Positions 10,651 through 16,358 of a DNA stretch of 64,000 nucleotides are shown one piece after another; position 1 is the first letter of the stretch; every line of letters begins with the position of its first letter. Made by a program: the position numbers and the translations under genes. The DNA is taken from contig CP058732.1 in the NCBI GenBank assembly GCA_013414795.1, positions 484,501-548,500 of the forward strand, given 5' to 3'. The notes under the pieces are model-generated. The model searched no databases. It saw nothing but the letters and a program-made list of their open reading frames with translations, and had not been told where the DNA came from. This stretch comes from Candidatus Kapaibacterium sp. GTDB lineage: Bacteria; Bacteroidota; Ignavibacteria; Kapaibacteriales; UBA2268.

Positions 10651-11919
10651 ATGAATCAAGTTCTAAAAAAGTCTTTGTTGCTGGTTACAGCAATTCTGAT
10701 GATGGCAGGATATTCTGCCAAAGCCCAGCGTTTAACAGATATGACCTTTTCCGTCTCGCAAGGAAGTTGGCAACAGTCCACTGGTTGGACAGTGCTTGCA
10801 AATGTTGTTGATGATGCTTCATACTACGTATCTTTACCTTTTCAATTCAAATTTGATGACTATTACAACTCATATGTCTATATGAGTTCAAACGGTCATA
10901 TTTCTTTTTACCCCTACTACGGATATTACAATCTTACAAACTATTATCTAACTTACACTTACGCCTCCGTCCAGGTAATGAAAAGAGATTTGTATGTTTA
11001 TAATGGTATGGGCTATGAAGTTCAAGGTGTTGCTCCAAATCGTGTAATTGTGTTCCAGTGGCTCGGAGTGGACTTTTATTATGGTTACAGTGCCAATATG
11101 AACTTCCAAGTAAAATTATATGAAACTTCGAACCGTGTAGACATTGTATTTGGACCAATGAACTATGGTTCATTCCCATTCCAGGATTACTATTACTATG
11201 CCCCACATCTTGGATTTACTGGTACCAATAGTTCAACCTACATTAATATTGAACCGGGACCAACATTTGTCGCCCACTTTTCCAACCGAAACCCAGAACC
11301 GCGTTACACAAGTTCATATATAATTAGCAGCCAAATTGCAGGCTATTGCACTCAAGGTGTTACAATCTCTTTGACATCATTCCCATCTTTTGTTGATGTT
11401 TGGCCACAAAGCGGAACCATCTTGCGTCGTGGAAACATCTACGATGGAACCGGCGGAACTATGAAACCCGGTATGTATTTTTCTAGAATTGCTGGACAAG
11501 CAGAAGTTTACGGTCGTTATCAAATTTCTGGTCCGCTTCCAGCAGACCCAAGAAGAAATCCACAATACAAAGTTATTTACACCGGAACCAAGGTTGGAAA
11601 CCCAACTGACGAGTTGATTTACTTCTCGCCACAACCAGTTGGCCAACCAGCGTTTGCCCCAATTCCCGCTGCAAAAGGTATTGCCGCAGGAACGAATGGT
11701 GCCCTTGATTTGTTCACCAATCGGAACCAAATTCCCGGCGGCGAATATATGGTCGAAGCAAGAATGGAACTACCAAACTATAACTACGTACAGCCAATTG
11801 ACCCAGTTATTTTTGTAATTGCCAATGACTATGACCTTGCAATCACAAGTTTGATTTCACCAAAGTCTAAAACAGATAGAAAATACCCATTATCGGTAAC
11901 AATCCCACTACAAGCCTGA
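10651..11919 (+). CDS. T9SS cargo protein, N-terminal segment (cut by in-frame TGA)
   Basis: First 422 codons of a giant exported protein. ATG at 10651 (upstream GGTGATTTT) gives a signal peptide MNQVLKKSLLLVTAILMMAG ending near SAKAQ; an earlier GTG in frame would add 12 non-signal residues. Residues ~25-230 are rich in Tyr/Phe beta strands and resemble the N-terminal sugar/adhesion-like sandwich of Bacteroidota exported proteins; the last part starts a CARDB-like Ig domain (YDLAITSLISPKSKTDRKYP). The frame stops at TGA 11917-11919, but the same frame stays open afterwards and continues the same domain, so this is not a natural C-terminus. Catalytic function unknown. Confidence 0.75.
   Translation: MNQVLKKSLLLVTAILMMAGYSAKAQRLTDMTFSVSQGSWQQSTGWTVLANVVDDASYYVSLPFQFKFDDYYNSYVYMSSNGHISFYPYYGYYNLTNYYLTYTYASVQVMKRDLYVYNGMGYEVQGVAPNRVIVFQWLGVDFYYGYSANMNFQVKLYETSNRVDIVFGPMNYGSFPFQDYYYYAPHLGFTGTNSSTYINIEPGPTFVAHFSNRNPEPRYTSSYIISSQIAGYCTQGVTISLTSFPSFVDVWPQSGTILRRGNIYDGTGGTMKPGMYFSRIAGQAEVYGRYQISGPLPADPRRNPQYKVIYTGTKVGNPTDELIYFSPQPVGQPAFAPIPAAKGIAAGTNGALDLFTNRNQIPGGEYMVEARMELPNYNYVQPIDPVIFVIANDYDLAITSLISPKSKTDRKYPLSVTIPLQA
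11917..11919 (+). other. Single in-frame TGA interrupting a 1864-codon reading frame
   Basis: The frame from 10651 to 16245 is uninterrupted except for this TGA at codon 423, in the middle of a CARDB-like strand (PLQA-stop-ITNIGI). One C-to-T change from CGA (Arg) would explain it. TGA serves as a normal stop elsewhere in the window (for example 35500-35502 and 50914-50916), so a changed genetic code is not supported. Confidence 0.85.
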
Positions 11920-12078
11920 ATTACAAATATTGGAATTGCAACCATTGACTCCTTTGTTACTGCTGTTACTGTTCGCAAAGTTGGTGGGGATATTGAACTT
12001 ACAGATACTGTTCGTTGGCCTACTGTTGCTAATACGCCTGGTTTAACCACTGGACAAAGTGTTCAAATCAATTTTAAA

Positions 12079-15000
12079 TTGTTCAGGCCAAGAGATGTTG
12101 GAGATTATGAGGTGGTCGTAACAGTAACACCAACCTATCCACCTTATGATGATGAAACTTACAACAATAGATATCCAAGAAGTGGCGAAACCTTTGTTTT
12201 CAATGTTGCATATGACGTCGAAGCAGAAGCCAAATCTGTACTTGTCCCAGAAGACAGCGTCTTTGTTGGAAGACCCTTACGTGTGAGGGCTGTTTTCCAA
12301 AACAATGGTGTTGGTGTTATATCTGATGCTCCCGCTTATGCCTACATTGTGAAAATGGAACCACCTTACGATACTGTTTTCCGAACGACAACTATTATTC
12401 AGGATATTCCAACAGGACGCAACAATATTACTAACGTAATCTTCCCCGATAACTTTATTCCACCTTCCGCTGGTACTTACAAGGTTTGTATTGGAGTTAA
12501 GGCTGAGGGCGACCCAGTTGAAACCAACGACGAATATTGCAAACTCTTCCAGGTTGTACACGCTATGGCTGGCACTTACACAATTGGTACAACTTATCTT
12601 GGAAATCCGCGAAACTATCCAACAATTCAAGATGCTATAAATGACTTGTTCAAACGCGGAGTAACTGGACCAGTTGTCTTCGAGTTGACGGATGCATACT
12701 ACGAAGTTGGAAATATTAATTCACCATTACCTGCAATCGATTTGACCTCGAAAATAATTGGTGTTAGCCCCGAAAATACTATCACATTCAAACCTTCAAT
12801 TATGCGAAGTCTTTCTCGCGGTTCAATTACAATAAAATTGAACTCTGGTGCTGGCATTGGTATTTTGATTGGTCAAAATGCCTCACCATCTAACAGTTAC
12901 GCCCCAGTACTTGAAGTTGTTCCAAGTATTATTCGAAAATATGCAAACTCCGATGGCTTCTTCATCTTTGATGGTGGCAAGCAAAAGTCAATACGCTTTG
13001 CTCTGAACACAAATAATACCTTCCGTGCTGTTTTCTATTTGGCCAACGGTGCGTCTAATATTACTATTCAAAACTGCATAATTGAAAATTACGACAATAA
13101 TAATGTCTCCAAGGCTGTCTCGCTTCCTTTGGTAATGTATAACTCTGCTCTCTCTATGTTCCAATACCAAGACGACAAACGCTCGACAACAGAAACTTAT
13201 TCTGCTGGTATCGTAATGCGAAGCAAGACCCCCGTTGGAAAGGACGACCCCACGTCGAATACATTTAACCTTGATACCATACCAAATATGAATAATATTA
13301 TCCGTGGGAATGAGATAAATGGTTTTGGTTATGGTATCGTTTCTCTTGGTGTTGGTCCACTCTTTAACGCTGGCAAAGCAGCATACCAACGCTACTATAA
13401 CAAGAACAACTTAATAGCCGACAATAAGATTTATGATGTTGCGCGTGCTGGTATTTTCCTTGGTTATGAAGAAGGAACCAAAGTTCAAAACAATAGGATT
13501 TACAATGTCAACGCACCAAGTGGTTGGGACGCTGCTGGCATCCTTGTTGGCGGGCAAAGGCGAACCGGCTATAATGGATATAACACTATTGATGTTGAAA
13601 TTGCTGGTAACGAAATTAGCAGCGTAAACTCTGGTGTGGCTTCTTGGGGTATTAAAGTAGAACAGGCAAGAAATGCTTATCCATTCACGAATCCACCACA
13701 AGTCTTCTTCCCAGATGTAGCAGAGAATACAAAGATTTATAACAATATTGTTTGGGGCTTGACAACAACTTCCCAAAATGCTCATCGTGCAGGTATTTAT
13801 TTACTCACAGAACGAGGAAATTATCCAGAAGTTCCATTAACTAGGGGTTATTATACTAGAAACGACAAAATTGTTAACAACACTGTTGTAATTCAAAATA
13901 TTGCAACATTGACAACCGGGTACGTTGCTGGTATTTCCATCCAAAGCGCTAAGAATACCCAACTTATGAACAATGCTGTTGCGTTGATGGATATGAATGT
14001 AGATCCGAACAATCAAGTGTATGCCTGCTTATTCTATCAAGGGATGATGCCAAGCGAGATGGGATTGACCAGCGACCGAAACGCATTCTGGTATGCAAAT
14101 GGTAGCGGTGGCACAGTTGTTCGATTTGTCGAGACAGATGAAAACGACAATATATTGGACAACGGAGGCAATCGCAACGACTTTGCGACATTGGAGCAGT
14201 GGCAGAACTGGACTGGAATGGACGCCAACAGTGTATTTGGCAACTTCACAAATGATTTTGTCTACCAAGGCTATGCTCCGAACCAGAAGTTGCGTATAGC
14301 AACGAACCCAACACCACTTGGTTCGATATTGAACAACAGAGGCAATCGCATTGATTGGGTAACCCACGACATAGATGGGAACATTCGTGGAGCAGCTGGG
14401 CAGCGATATGACATCGGAGCAGTCGAATTCGATGGCAGATTGTATCTCAGCGACCTTGAGATGATAAAGATAACCTATCCAGCGAAGTATCAGTCGTCGA
14501 CTGGAATGTTCAACGACGCCCAATATGTAATGGACAATTCGCCTACGAATGTAAAGGCATTGGTACGCAACAGTGGCAACTTACAGCAATCTGCTGTAAA
14601 TGTAACAGTGAACATATATCGCGAGATGCCCGATGGCAATTTCAGCACAGTGCCAGAGGTAACTGCGACCAAGCAAGTAACTCTTTCAAGCGGAGAGAGC
14701 ATTGAAGTCGACTTCGCATTGAACGACGGGCAAGCCCCCGACTTCAAGCCGAAGACATATGGAGAATTGGCGAACGAAGGCTACTATGTGCCCGACCAAT
14801 TCTTGACGATGCAAGCGAACGTAACGCCAAGATACAAGATAGTAGTTTCGTTGGGAGGCGACCAACAGAACGCAAACAACAGCGTATCGAAAGTAGTGCG
14901 ATACTATATACCACAGAGCAAGACCCGCGCATTGTTAAGCGTTGAGAACTCTATGGTGCAACTCGATGCCAACTCGACAGTAGACGAGATAGCCGGAAGA

Positions 15001-16245
15001 TTGAACTACGATAGTTTGATTACTGCATTCCGCAAGTTAGGATGGATGATAGACATACCCGAGGGTATCTTCGACTTTGACATATTCGACCGCAAGGGAT
15101 GGGAGCCGAAGGCAGTCGATTACACATTATTCAATTCGATTTTGTGGGCAGATGGCGACGACAAGCCATTGACGAAGATGGAGAAGATTGACTTGCGGCG
15201 ATTCCTAACGAGCGGAACAGTTGAAGCGAAGAAGAATTTAGTGATAAGCAGTCAAGAGATAGTACGTGCCAACGCTTCTGATGCAGAATTTGTTGGCGGA
15301 TTATTGCGAGCGAAGAATGTAGCGCCGGGCAATCCGCAAGGAGCCGGAGTGAGCAACGATGGTAATGCTGTGATTGGCTTGGCAGTCGGAAGGAAGTTAG
15401 CGATGAGCATTCGAAGCACTGGCTACAATGGTGATGTACCACCATATTGCGGATTAATGGCAGTCGAGGCGAATGGAGCAGGACAAGCGCTTGCTGGTGG
15501 ATATTATCGAAGCCATCAAGGAAGCACAACAGATTCGATAGCCGGAGTAGCCACGACGACATTAACGAGGAACGTAATATTGTTCGGAGTCGACTGGCGA
15601 CATTGGGGCAGAATTGATATGATAATCCGAGCGATACTCGACTTTGCCAACGCAAACGGTGGGTTCATCATACCAGTAGAGTTAAGCGAATTCAATGCCA
15701 AGCCAGTAGGGAATGTAGTATACGTTACCTGGGCAACAGAGAGCGAATACAACACGAGCAAGTTCGAAGTAGAGCGAGCCGAGGTGCAAGGAGCGACGAA
15801 GAGCGAATTTGTAAAAGTTGGCGAAGAGAAAGCAGCTGGAACAAGCACAAGTCGTAAGGAATACGGACCCGTTGTCGACCGAGGCGTAGGATTTGGCAAA
15901 GTGTATGTCTATCGGTTGAAAGTAGTCGATGTAGACGGAGCGACAAGTTACAGCCGAGAGGTAATGGTGAAGATGGAAGGCGAGGTTAACTGGGTGAGCG
16001 AAGTAATGCCAAATCCAAGCGACAATGAAGTGAAGTTCGAAGTAAGTGCAATTGAAGGAGCGAACATCGAGGCTCGAATCATCGACCTTGCTGGACGCGA
16101 GGTGAAACAAGTGTACAATGGTGTTGGCAACGGCAATGTAGTGAAGGTAGTAGCCAATGTAAGCGACCTACCGAGCGGAATGTACACATTAGTAGTTAAG
16201 ATAGGAAACGAAACGATAACACGCAGCGTGAACATAGTGCGATAA
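12079..16245 (+). CDS. T9SS cargo protein, C-terminal segment: CARDB, parallel beta-helix, sorting domain
   Basis: Continuation of the protein begun at 10651; the frame is open from 11920 and the first usable start after the TGA is TTG at 12079, which has no convincing ribosome-binding site or signal peptide. Parts in order (residues from 12079): CARDB-like Ig domains (to ~150); a right-handed parallel beta-helix (~155-640) with Asn-rich turns such as NNIIRGNEINGFGYGIVSLG and NKIYDVARAGIFLGY; a mixed region with another CARDB-like unit; a short fibronectin-like module (PVELSEFNAKPVGNVVYVTW); and a type A T9SS sorting domain over the last ~80 residues (VMPNPSDNEVKFEVS, SGMYTLVVK). Surface adhesin or polysaccharide-acting protein are both possible. 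From ~14.0 kb onward codons end mainly in A or G, unlike the first half. Confidence 0.8.
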   Translation: MFRPRDVGDYEVVVTVTPTYPPYDDETYNNRYPRSGETFVFNVAYDVEAEAKSVLVPEDSVFVGRPLRVRAVFQNNGVGVISDAPAYAYIVKMEPPYDTVFRTTTIIQDIPTGRNNITNVIFPDNFIPPSAGTYKVCIGVKAEGDPVETNDEYCKLFQVVHAMAGTYTIGTTYLGNPRNYPTIQDAINDLFKRGVTGPVVFELTDAYYEVGNINSPLPAIDLTSKIIGVSPENTITFKPSIMRSLSRGSITIKLNSGAGIGILIGQNASPSNSYAPVLEVVPSIIRKYANSDGFFIFDGGKQKSIRFALNTNNTFRAVFYLANGASNITIQNCIIENYDNNNVSKAVSLPLVMYNSALSMFQYQDDKRSTTETYSAGIVMRSKTPVGKDDPTSNTFNLDTIPNMNNIIRGNEINGFGYGIVSLGVGPLFNAGKAAYQRYYNKNNLIADNKIYDVARAGIFLGYEEGTKVQNNRIYNVNAPSGWDAAGILVGGQRRTGYNGYNTIDVEIAGNEISSVNSGVASWGIKVEQARNAYPFTNPPQVFFPDVAENTKIYNNIVWGLTTTSQNAHRAGIYLLTERGNYPEVPLTRGYYTRNDKIVNNTVVIQNIATLTTGYVAGISIQSAKNTQLMNNAVALMDMNVDPNNQVYACLFYQGMMPSEMGLTSDRNAFWYANGSGGTVVRFVETDENDNILDNGGNRNDFATLEQWQNWTGMDANSVFGNFTNDFVYQGYAPNQKLRIATNPTPLGSILNNRGNRIDWVTHDIDGNIRGAAGQRYDIGAVEFDGRLYLSDLEMIKITYPAKYQSSTGMFNDAQYVMDNSPTNVKALVRNSGNLQQSAVNVTVNIYREMPDGNFSTVPEVTATKQVTLSSGESIEVDFALNDGQAPDFKPKTYGELANEGYYVPDQFLTMQANVTPRYKIVVSLGGDQQNANNSVSKVVRYYIPQSKTRALLSVENSMVQLDANSTVDEIAGRLNYDSLITAFRKLGWMIDIPEGIFDFDIFDRKGWEPKAVDYTLFNSILWADGDDKPLTKMEKIDLRRFLTSGTVEAKKNLVISSQEIVRANASDAEFVGGLLRAKNVAPGNPQGAGVSNDGNAVIGLAVGRKLAMSIRSTGYNGDVPPYCGLMAVEANGAGQALAGGYYRSHQGSTTDSIAGVATTTLTRNVILFGVDWRHWGRIDMIIRAILDFANANGGFIIPVELSEFNAKPVGNVVYVTWATESEYNTSKFEVERAEVQGATKSEFVKVGEEKAAGTSTSRKEYGPVVDRGVGFGKVYVYRLKVVDVDGATSYSREVMVKMEGEVNWVSEVMPNPSDNEVKFEVSAIEGANIEARIIDLAGREVKQVYNGVGNGNVVKVVANVSDLPSGMYTLVVKIGNETITRSVNIVR

Positions 16246-16264
16246 TTGTAGAATAAATCGAAGC

Positions 16265-16304
16265 GAGCCGCTGGCGGACTTTCCCCCAGCGGCTCTTTGT
16301 TTTT
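16265..16304 (+). terminator. Rho-independent terminator after giant T9SS cargo
   Basis: GAGCCGCTGG (16265-16274) pairs perfectly with CCAGCGGCTC (16286-16295), followed by TTTGTTTTT. Confidence 0.92.
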
Positions 16305-16358
16305 AAAAAAATGAAACTTTTGAAATATCGTTAACAAAAAATTAGAAAAAGAGAGAAG

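Follow-up and report, generated by a model that had tools for sequence, protein, structure and literature searches.

Why does a single gene change its codon habits abruptly part-way along its length? The question is raised by a cargo gene (W) in the window, that is, the whole 64,000-nucleotide stretch of Candidatus Kapaibacterium sp. contig CP058732.1 analysed here, for which the initial annotation had suggested that the C-terminal half may have a different origin, for example domain replacement between cargo genes. The abrupt change of style in W marks recombination, not foreign origin. Its source, with a probability of roughly 0.6, is ectopic GC-biased conversion, together with recurrent homogenisation of the C-terminal module (M) between genes of the W type and those of the type of a second cargo gene of the same genome (P). 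The unshared upstream half is called N; G000 is the genome of the window, G001–G004 are other genomes of the genus, higher G numbers are other genomes, and L numbers are loci.

The 5' part of W, counted from the first ATG of its frame, occupies positions 10,651–11,916 of the plus strand, on which all features below also lie. Its N-terminus is hydrophobic as judged by eye, and over 422 aa it is 88% and 87% identical in amino acids to the orthologues G001b and G002a. It stops at an in-frame TGA (11,917–11,919), because of which W is listed as two ORFs, a break in what had been described as one gene. In G001 and G002 the orthologues have an uninterrupted frame, to which the part of W behind the TGA retains 84% amino acid identity; the TGA is either a recent nonsense change or a sequence error. 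The remainder of N (11,920–13,965) contains a beta-helix (PF13229 at 13,288–13,629, under its cut-off), and M follows as 754 codons of altered style at 13,981–16,242.

At the end of M, a T9SS type A C-terminal sorting domain (16,006–16,227) passes the curated cut-offs of both TIGR04183 (E 1.4e-7; 31.4 bits, cut-off 23) and PF18962 (E 6e-8; 33.3 bits, cut-off 27), and on this profile evidence W is predicted to be a T9SS type A cargo protein. In the structural model, residues 668–754 of M match PorU (6za2; Z 10.9, rmsd 2.3). Residues 277–565 (14,809–15,675) are predicted to form an alpha/beta domain (pLDDT 84.8), and the top structural matches of the model are a GH42 enzyme domain and an Ignavibacterium beta-1,2-glucosyltransferase domain (Z 14–15), which we take to be Rossmann-like. 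Domain-level matches were used here, and whole-model Foldseek matches (TM 0.1–0.2) were set aside. A search of the PDB at E 0.01 returned no sequence relatives.

The codon switch is real, and the GC3 profile across it is not smooth. GC3 rises from 0.33 to 0.52, and a maximum-likelihood changepoint in the frame 10,651–16,245 falls at codon 1086 (window position ~13,909; 2-lnL interval 13,891–14,041) with lnLR 32.3, a value equalled in none of 200 permutations. At fourfold sites T falls from 0.41 to 0.15 while A+G rises from 0.40 to 0.64, and Ile ATA, Lys AAG and Ser AGC increase strongly. The move to A/G-ending codons noted in the initial annotation therefore holds for fourfold codons, but two-fold pyrimidine codons shift to C (0.45 to 0.62). 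Among sampled ORFs of at least 250 aa from the same genome (n = 237; 236 for AAG), M is exceeded by one in GC3 and by one in ATA, and by none in T3, fourfold T, fourfold purine or AAG. Measured between adjacent 250-codon windows, the GC3 step is 0.208 in W, with a maximum of 0.200 in 91 sampled genes of at least 500 aa; the same step in P is 0.160, within the range of those genes.

Several causes of this style were tried and rejected. High-expression codon usage was rejected on the ribosomal-cluster genes of G000, which lack the style (GC3 0.35, fourfold T 0.36), and replication strand or local composition on the nearly identical style of N in W, which is on the plus strand, and in P, on the minus strand. 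Antisense frames in the first 1818 nt of M (183, 96 and 177 codons) are mostly inside the range of synonymous shuffling (95% points 183, 146 and 128), with one frame beyond it, and antisense genes were discarded. The motif AGCGA is dense in M (20 seen, 8.4 expected from synonymous shuffling, z 5.6) and lies on the sense strand in 20 of 20 cases, yet in the genome sample GAGCGA occurs about as often as a Markov model predicts (187 observed against 181), and a Chi-like motif was likewise dropped.

A search of the genome for a cargo gene sharing the module at the nucleotide level found P, which lies ~110 kb from W in inverted orientation (tract part at G000:C1 ~386.12–388.47 kb, minus strand). 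The two genes have in common a 2.35-kb segment with 99.3% nucleotide identity, as against 48% over the whole of N. In the window this homogenised (converted) tract spans 13,966–16,315, with 16 mismatches in 2350 bp and both ends sharp. No mismatch occurs over the 1562 bp from 14,407 to 15,968, presumably the youngest portion of the tract. The 3' end of the tract includes a terminator-like hairpin and T-run (16,265–16,304), recognised by eye in the W/P alignment; identity stops 11 nt past it, and in G001 and G002 the 3' border also lies just beyond the T-run. Upstream of M, identity extends by 15 nt in G000, 43 nt in G002 and 57 nt in G003, ends that are sharp and vary between species. The codon switch of W is located at the 5' border of this tract, and the style changes at the tract border in both W and P, so that neither upstream half carries it.

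W and P represent two old T9SS cargo gene types, which share the C-terminal module but diverge in N. Two further species of the genus have upstream halves that group by gene type and modules that group by genome. Over N, orthologues are 74–77% identical in nucleotides and same-genome paralogues 48–49%. Over M, same-genome paralogues reach 99.3% (G000), 87.3% (G001, 606 codons) and 99.1% (G002, 76 codons), and identity between genomes is 74–80%. Paralogues are closer than orthologues in the tract and the reverse is true in the flanks, as concerted evolution predicts. In G003 both contigs stop 44 bp into M, and their final 101 bp are identical. On quick trees of 18 genes (LG+G4), N requires a single change of gene type and M requires 8. 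For M the AU test rejects one W-type clade (p 7e-8), and for N same-genome clades are rejected in all 7 groups tested (p <= 2.7e-6). The N parts of G025 and G033 also cluster by genome, so the case for conversion there comes solely from the contrast in identity (0.64–0.72 vs 0.98–1.00). From these sequence comparisons it is nearly certain that recurrent gene conversion homogenises M within genomes while N stays type-specific, a concerted evolution found in several Kapabacteria/Ignavibacteria lineages. Exchange between cargo genes, one part of the earlier proposal, is borne out and recurs in several lineages. The other part, that the style stems from a different origin, is not supported, since both genes switch at the border and M is about as diverged from its G001 relatives (74–76% nt, 83–85% aa over 606 codons) as N is (76–77% nt, 86–87% aa).

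The style is not a general property of cargo C-termini in this genome. Six of 11 further cargo matches were examined, three of them cut by the edge of the fetched sequence, and in none of their frames was there an internal GC3 step above lnLR 7.1. One cargo gene (C1 268.9–273.5 kb) is GC3-rich throughout (0.65). It does look foreign: no matches at E 1e-20 were found in four other genomes of the genus, and it is 68% identical to a gene in another family.

Across lineages, we surveyed the GC3 step by changepoint in 63 full-length homologues, which superseded a test of the mean difference M minus N (p 0.006 per assembly; outliers lay in either direction, and 4 of 82 gene rows were left out because their parts were short). 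The 10 largest upward steps (lnLR 22–111) all belong to tract genes, the tract being seen in seven and inferred from contig ends in three, while the largest upward step among 49 non-tract genes has lnLR 11.3. These 10 genes come from five groups (this genus; G025; G033; G040; G041 with G042), whose independence was tested for part of the groups only; in G040–G042 the tract is inferred from contig ends and not directly seen. GC3 is raised in the tract relative to the rest of the gene in 5 of 6 homogenised-tract groups (two of the five inferred from contig ends). The exception, VEQR (L120), is a tandem pair identical beyond codon 472 with no GC3 step; its parts before that codon differ by only 11%, and the pair may therefore be young. 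The GC3 of the tract is reached by 1 of 237 sampled same-genome genes in G000, 0 of 48 in G025, 0 of 37 in G033 and 0 of 45 in G041. For G040, N lies under the genome mean (0.35 vs 0.56), so that the contrast may come partly from N. The step falls 10–19 codons from the tract edge in G000 and G040, and about 100–340 in G025, G033, G041 and G042. No significant step was found by changepoint in G001b, and upward steps are present in two single-copy cases, G004 (lnLR 11.3) and L138 (lnLR 10.2).

Three genes that seemed to be single-copy but have a raised module (L126, L143 and L116), chosen for look-up on account of their step, each have a partner whose contig ends inside the gene. Among 16 other apparent singles serving as a control, the partner is cut at a contig edge in three (G054, G057 and G060; Fisher p 0.02); among the 12 of these singles covered by the GC3 survey, it is cut in one (p 0.009). 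L130 and L133 have cut partners and GC3 that is not raised. In the first cross-lineage test "single" referred only to the loci that had been fetched; of 16 such genomes searched, 4 hold further full-length copies, which are not homogenised (module 49–58% nt).

C-ending and G-ending two-fold codons are both up in all six tabulated step genes. At fourfold sites A and T both drop in G025, G033, G040, G041 and G042, whereas in G000 and G002 T drops and A climbs; the letters raised vary by lineage, with G in G025 and G040, C in G033, and A and G in G000. Polarised substitutions in P show an excess of AT>GC in M relative to N (54/117 vs 88/278, p 0.008) and a deficit of GC>AT (16/57 vs 29/60, p 0.036), and the differences in G001a, G004 and W have the same direction without being significant. 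In G000, T>A is also up (20/97 vs 18/36, p 0.002) and ATA replaces ATT, neither of which GC bias predicts. The known near-identical pieces of G002 (head and tail) have style scores of 0.21–0.24, higher than any of the 133 N windows of 57 codons (maximum 0.02), and by the same score the style is absent from the single-copy G004 module. In G001, diverged bins lack the style and near-identical bins are mixed (some +0.10 and +0.20, one -0.31 at 98%). Its 35-codon tail scores 0.23, at the upper edge of the range in 217 equally long N windows (maximum 0.24), and a within-gene dose response was not significant there (rho 0.20, p 0.47) and was set aside. The score of G000 itself is circular because the style model was trained on its own module.

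GC bias of gene conversion in bacteria is disputed; in these copies it is likely, if not proven. Homologous repair would copy one module over the other. The upstream copies would be too diverged to pair, and downstream the copies would end past the terminator, which would give a tract with fixed limits. If mismatch resolution in the module copies favours G/C, many rounds of it would let synonymous sites in the tract drift from the usual codons of the genome, and the style would fade where conversion slackens or the partner is lost. In this genus an additional replacement of T by A, its cause unexplained, strengthens the effect.

That the style of M is an outlier in its genome would also be expected had the module arrived from a lineage with other codon habits, by horizontal transfer or as an imported allele, and later spread to W and P, and foreign cargo genes such as the GC3-rich one do exist in G000. 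M is, however, about as near to its genus orthologues as N and does not qualify as horizontally acquired. On the M tree G000 groups with G001 and next with G004, and the N parts of the genus all have GC3 of 0.28–0.37, so there is no known congeneric donor with this style. Import is very improbable. A scenario with no long-term conversion, in which the module was duplicated recently or the assembly collapsed, is hardly credible: several MAG contigs do stop inside the gene, but both gene types are old and occur in other species of the genus with homogenised modules of their own, G001 keeps two distinct copies at 87%, and in G000 the copies sit on one contig and differ at either end.

Selection on the module, through codon choice for expression, folding or secretion or through an RNA-level signal, could create a style that conversion only spreads. 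The excess of AGCGA beyond codon usage, all on the sense strand, and the raised T>A fit such selection. We consider it unlikely, as both halves lie within one gene, the style is missing from ribosomal genes and from the single-copy G004, and the 49 non-tract homologues with the same module show no comparable step. Causality might also run the other way, if GC-rich or motif-rich (Chi-like) DNA recombines more and only such modules remain homogenised. The G000 module and the known G002 pieces are indeed near-identical and styled, the G004 module is neither, and AGCGA is dense on the sense strand. GAGCGA near its Markov expectation is unlike a Chi site, though, and raised letters that vary by lineage are odd for a single motif. 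GC content was not linked to conversion frequency in M. tuberculosis, according to the available part of a preprint (PMC13061034). Such reversed causality is improbable, and we return to biased conversion as the preferred reading.

The rgpA, kgp and hagA genes of P. gingivalis are T9SS cargo genes. They are similar, by description only, in their repeated adhesin regions, and the repeats confounded the assembly of hagA (PMC5266723, in the part available). In Helicobacter pylori, homA/homB (and babA/babB) are paralogous surface-protein genes of which the 3' part (segment 3) pairs by strain, through conversion, and the 5' part by gene; the accessible portion of that paper reports no codon step (PMC2795765). 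Strains of one species were compared there, whereas here the genes are T9SS cargo, the pattern recurs across genera, and a GC3/codon step accompanies the tract. Lassalle et al. 2015 likewise describe GC and GC3 that rise with recombination, argued to be independent of codon selection, but in the sections available they contrast recombining with non-recombining core genes, while here both states occur inside one gene; the words paralog, duplicat and ectopic are absent from their main text (PMC4450053). Recurrent homogenisation of prokaryotic paralogues over long times was described by Wang and Chen 2018, whose 26 genes, as far as the available text goes, are mostly key members of important pathways, unlike the present case in which only the C-terminal part is homogenised; the phrase "GC content" is absent from the main text of that paper (PMC6053082). 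Primate X-chromosome palindromes also combine frequent arm-to-arm conversion, >99% identity and GC bias (PMC8981503, available part), but they are eukaryotic and involve entire palindrome arms. Counting against GC bias, an AT bias is reported for bacteria in an excerpt citing Bobay and Ochman 2017 (PMC8223754). Among the partly available texts from our literature search, none reported that cargo genes of Kapabacteria undergo conversion or that codon usage steps at a conversion tract in bacteria.

Because one gene contains both a converting and a non-converting half, the two share expression, strand, replication position and population size. This within-gene comparison repeats over several lineages and bears on the disputed GC bias in bacteria. 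It is close to an even call whether ectopic conversion between bacterial paralogues is itself GC-biased, and enough so to rewrite the synonymous codons of half a gene; half-shared pairs would then be natural experiments with the unconverted half as control, and codon steps could locate converting tracts, including those collapsed in assembly. In three fragmented genomes, the GC3 step led to second copies of the gene that had been cut off. A shift in codon usage within a gene is not, on its own, evidence of foreign origin.

The T9SS cargo gene of the window (W, frame 10651-16245) has a third-position GC content (GC3) of 0.33 until ~13.91 kb and of 0.52 beyond. The abrupt codon switch noticed here in the initial annotation was accepted as real, because the C-terminal module (window 13981-16242) lies far outside the range of its genome, where at most one sampled ORF exceeds it for any of six codon measures (minimum length 250 aa, n = 237; 236 for AAG), and because the ribosomal cluster has codon usage like the genome background and not like the module. 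Within the module, the ATA share of Ile codons rises from about 0.11 to 0.57, and AGCGA is present 20 times, always on the sense strand (synonymous shuffling predicts 8.4). W is interrupted by an in-frame TGA (window 11917-11919). This is a recent change or a sequence error, as the reading frame of the orthologues in two congeneric genomes, G001 and G002, is uninterrupted and W retains 84% identity to them behind the TGA.

The genome that holds the window (G000, one 2.66-Mb contig, C1) was searched at the DNA level for cargo genes sharing the module, as proposed with the initial annotation, and gave one further copy of the segment, on the minus strand inside a 1862-codon open frame (gene P). 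The shared segment (W 13966-16315; P at C1 ~386.12-388.47 kb) has 16 differences in 2350 bases and a central run of 1562 bases without any; of the 15 codons that differ in its coding part, 14 encode the same residue. Upstream, identity drops at once to 58-64% over the last 200 codons and is 48% over the entire N parts (the type-specific upstream halves); downstream, it stops 11 nt past the terminator T-run. P contains a GEVED domain, which was searched for in W and not found. W and P are therefore distinct cargo proteins that share their C-terminal half. This half holds the last part of the beta-helix together with two further domains (alpha/beta and fibronectin-like) and the T9SS sorting domain.

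The codon switch of W recurs in P at the corresponding position (log-likelihood ratio of the GC3 changepoint, lnLR, 23.6), so the style was not brought over from P's upstream half. What a foreign gene looks like in this genome is illustrated by another cargo gene (L075 4380-9000; G000:C1:268879-273499), which has a GC3 of 0.65 along the fetched frame. A second copy of it was not found, the other four genomes of the genus gave no relative at E 1e-20, and of 20 genomes searched the best match came from another family (G025, 68% identical). By these sequence criteria it was probably acquired; the module is unlike it, and a foreign module was rejected. A 1036-codon gene with a GC3 of 0.61 (L153 15534-18642; C1 ~455.5-458.6 kb), perhaps also acquired, is closest to the module style among sampled genes of at least 250 aa. 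Elsewhere, a CRISPR-like array of at least 292 repeats with about 66-bp spacing spans a full 19.5-kb stretch (L154; G000:C1:580001-599500).

Orthologues of both W and P, assigned by their N parts, are present in G001 and G002; G004 has the P type only. N parts are 74-77% identical (nt) to their orthologues versus 48-49% to the same-genome paralogue. Module pairs within a genome are 99.3% identical in G000, 87.3% in G001, and 99.1% in G002 (over only 76 assembled codons), versus 74-80% between genomes. In G003, both genes reach a contig end 44 bp into the module with their last 101 bases identical, as expected of a collapsed repeat. Identity extends upstream of the module start by 15 nt (G000), 43 nt (G002), and 57 nt (G003). 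A style score, which is circular for G000 since it was trained on that module, is high in the known G002 pieces (0.21-0.24; the highest of 133 N windows reaches 0.02); the G004 score is low. G001 is mixed, with a low score in the diverged stretch and near-identical bins in both directions; its identical 35-codon tail has a high score that falls at the margin of what N windows of equal length reach.

In a tree of 50 gene copies (quick method), N parts of W-like and P-like types separate within the window's family, and in the module tree same-genome copies pair in G000, G001, G008, G010, G012, and G018, as well as in the ancestor shared by G022 and CALHRB. Trees of 18 copies need a single change of gene type for N and 8 for the module; a single W-type clade is rejected for the module (p = 7e-8) and same-genome clades for N in 7 of 7 groups tested. 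G017, G020, and the G023 group are lineages without recent homogenisation. The homogenised stretch begins further upstream in G025, which has two copies, and in G033, of whose four tandem copies three were used. N parts in both also group by genome, and conversion there thus rests on the identity contrast between parts. Named relatives are mostly Ignavibacteria/Candidatus Kapaibacterium MAGs. An additional N-part copy with one internal TGA lies at G050:C14:93235-96043. The different origin initially suggested for the C-terminal module is not supported as the source of the codon style, as P switches at the same point; the suggested exchange of this domain between cargo genes is borne out by the W/P segment and the pairing of modules by genome. 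We consider gene conversion between the cargo genes close to certain (probability about 0.95).

GC3 changepoints were surveyed in 63 genes whose N part and module are both long (rows with N <900 or module <500 codons excluded; duplicates between two collections removed). Ten genes head the ranking of upward steps, with lnLR from 22.0 to 111.0. Seven are W, P, G025a, G025b, G033a, G033b, and G033d, all with a homogenised tract in view; the others are L126, L143, and L116 (in G040, G041, and G042), single-copy at first look. N-part searches gave a partner gene for each of these three, with the contig ending inside the gene (G040:C25 at 9517; G041:C19 at 212289; G042:C117 at its base 1), from which we infer tracts assembled as collapsed repeats. 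Among 16 other apparent singles searched with the N-part profile, a contig edge cuts the partner in three (G054, G057, G060), one of them among the 12 in the survey (3/3 versus 3/16, p = 0.02; versus 1/12, p = 0.009); additional full-length copies occur in four control genomes, and every one is diverged (module 49-58% nt). L130 and L133, from G057 and G060, show no GC3 rise; these cargo genes are shorter (1427-1429 codons), with N-part pieces in separate nearby frames or on short contigs.

Overall, lnLR is at least 20 in 10 of 14 tract genes versus 0 of 49 others. The tract genes below 20 are G001a (12.4), G001b (3.3), and two copies without an upward step, the tandem full-length VEQR pair (L120/L172, G043:C116), which is identical past codon 472 and is an exception to the rule. 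Among non-tract genes, the strongest steps are 11.3 (G004, where the partner may have been lost) and 10.2 (L138). Step and tract edge are separated by 10-19 codons in G000 and G040; in G025, G033, G041, and G042 the distance is about 100-340 codons. Tract ends may shift over time, and the distance leaves room for causes other than conversion. Live rivals as the source of the style are reverse causation, with GC-rich DNA being more prone to conversion, and selection acting on the module itself. Tract GC3 is above the sampled genes of the respective genome in G025, G033, and G041, and in G000 above all except 1 of 237; the G040 tract is only moderately raised (reached by 2 of 26 sampled genes), and its N part is unusually AT-rich.

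C- and G-ending forms of two-fold codons both rise in G000, G025, G033, G040, G041, and G042, and A and T both fall at fourfold sites in the latter five, which fits a bias to G and C. In the window's genus, T falls and A rises, with ATA in place of ATT. Polarised substitutions in P show excesses of AT>GC (p = 0.008) and of T>A (p = 0.002), the latter not being predicted by a GC bias.

A limited literature search gave no description of a codon-usage step coinciding with a tract of gene conversion in bacteria. Passages of one source argue for GC-biased conversion in bacteria (PMC4450053), and a passage of another, citing other work, disputes it (PMC8223754). Prokaryotic concerted evolution can be long-lasting according to PMC6053082, and PMC2795765 describes concerted evolution of a 3' segment in hom/bab genes; the separate elements of the present case are already in the literature. 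On balance, we lean towards conversion between the cargo genes also producing the codon style through GC bias, which would explain most cases.
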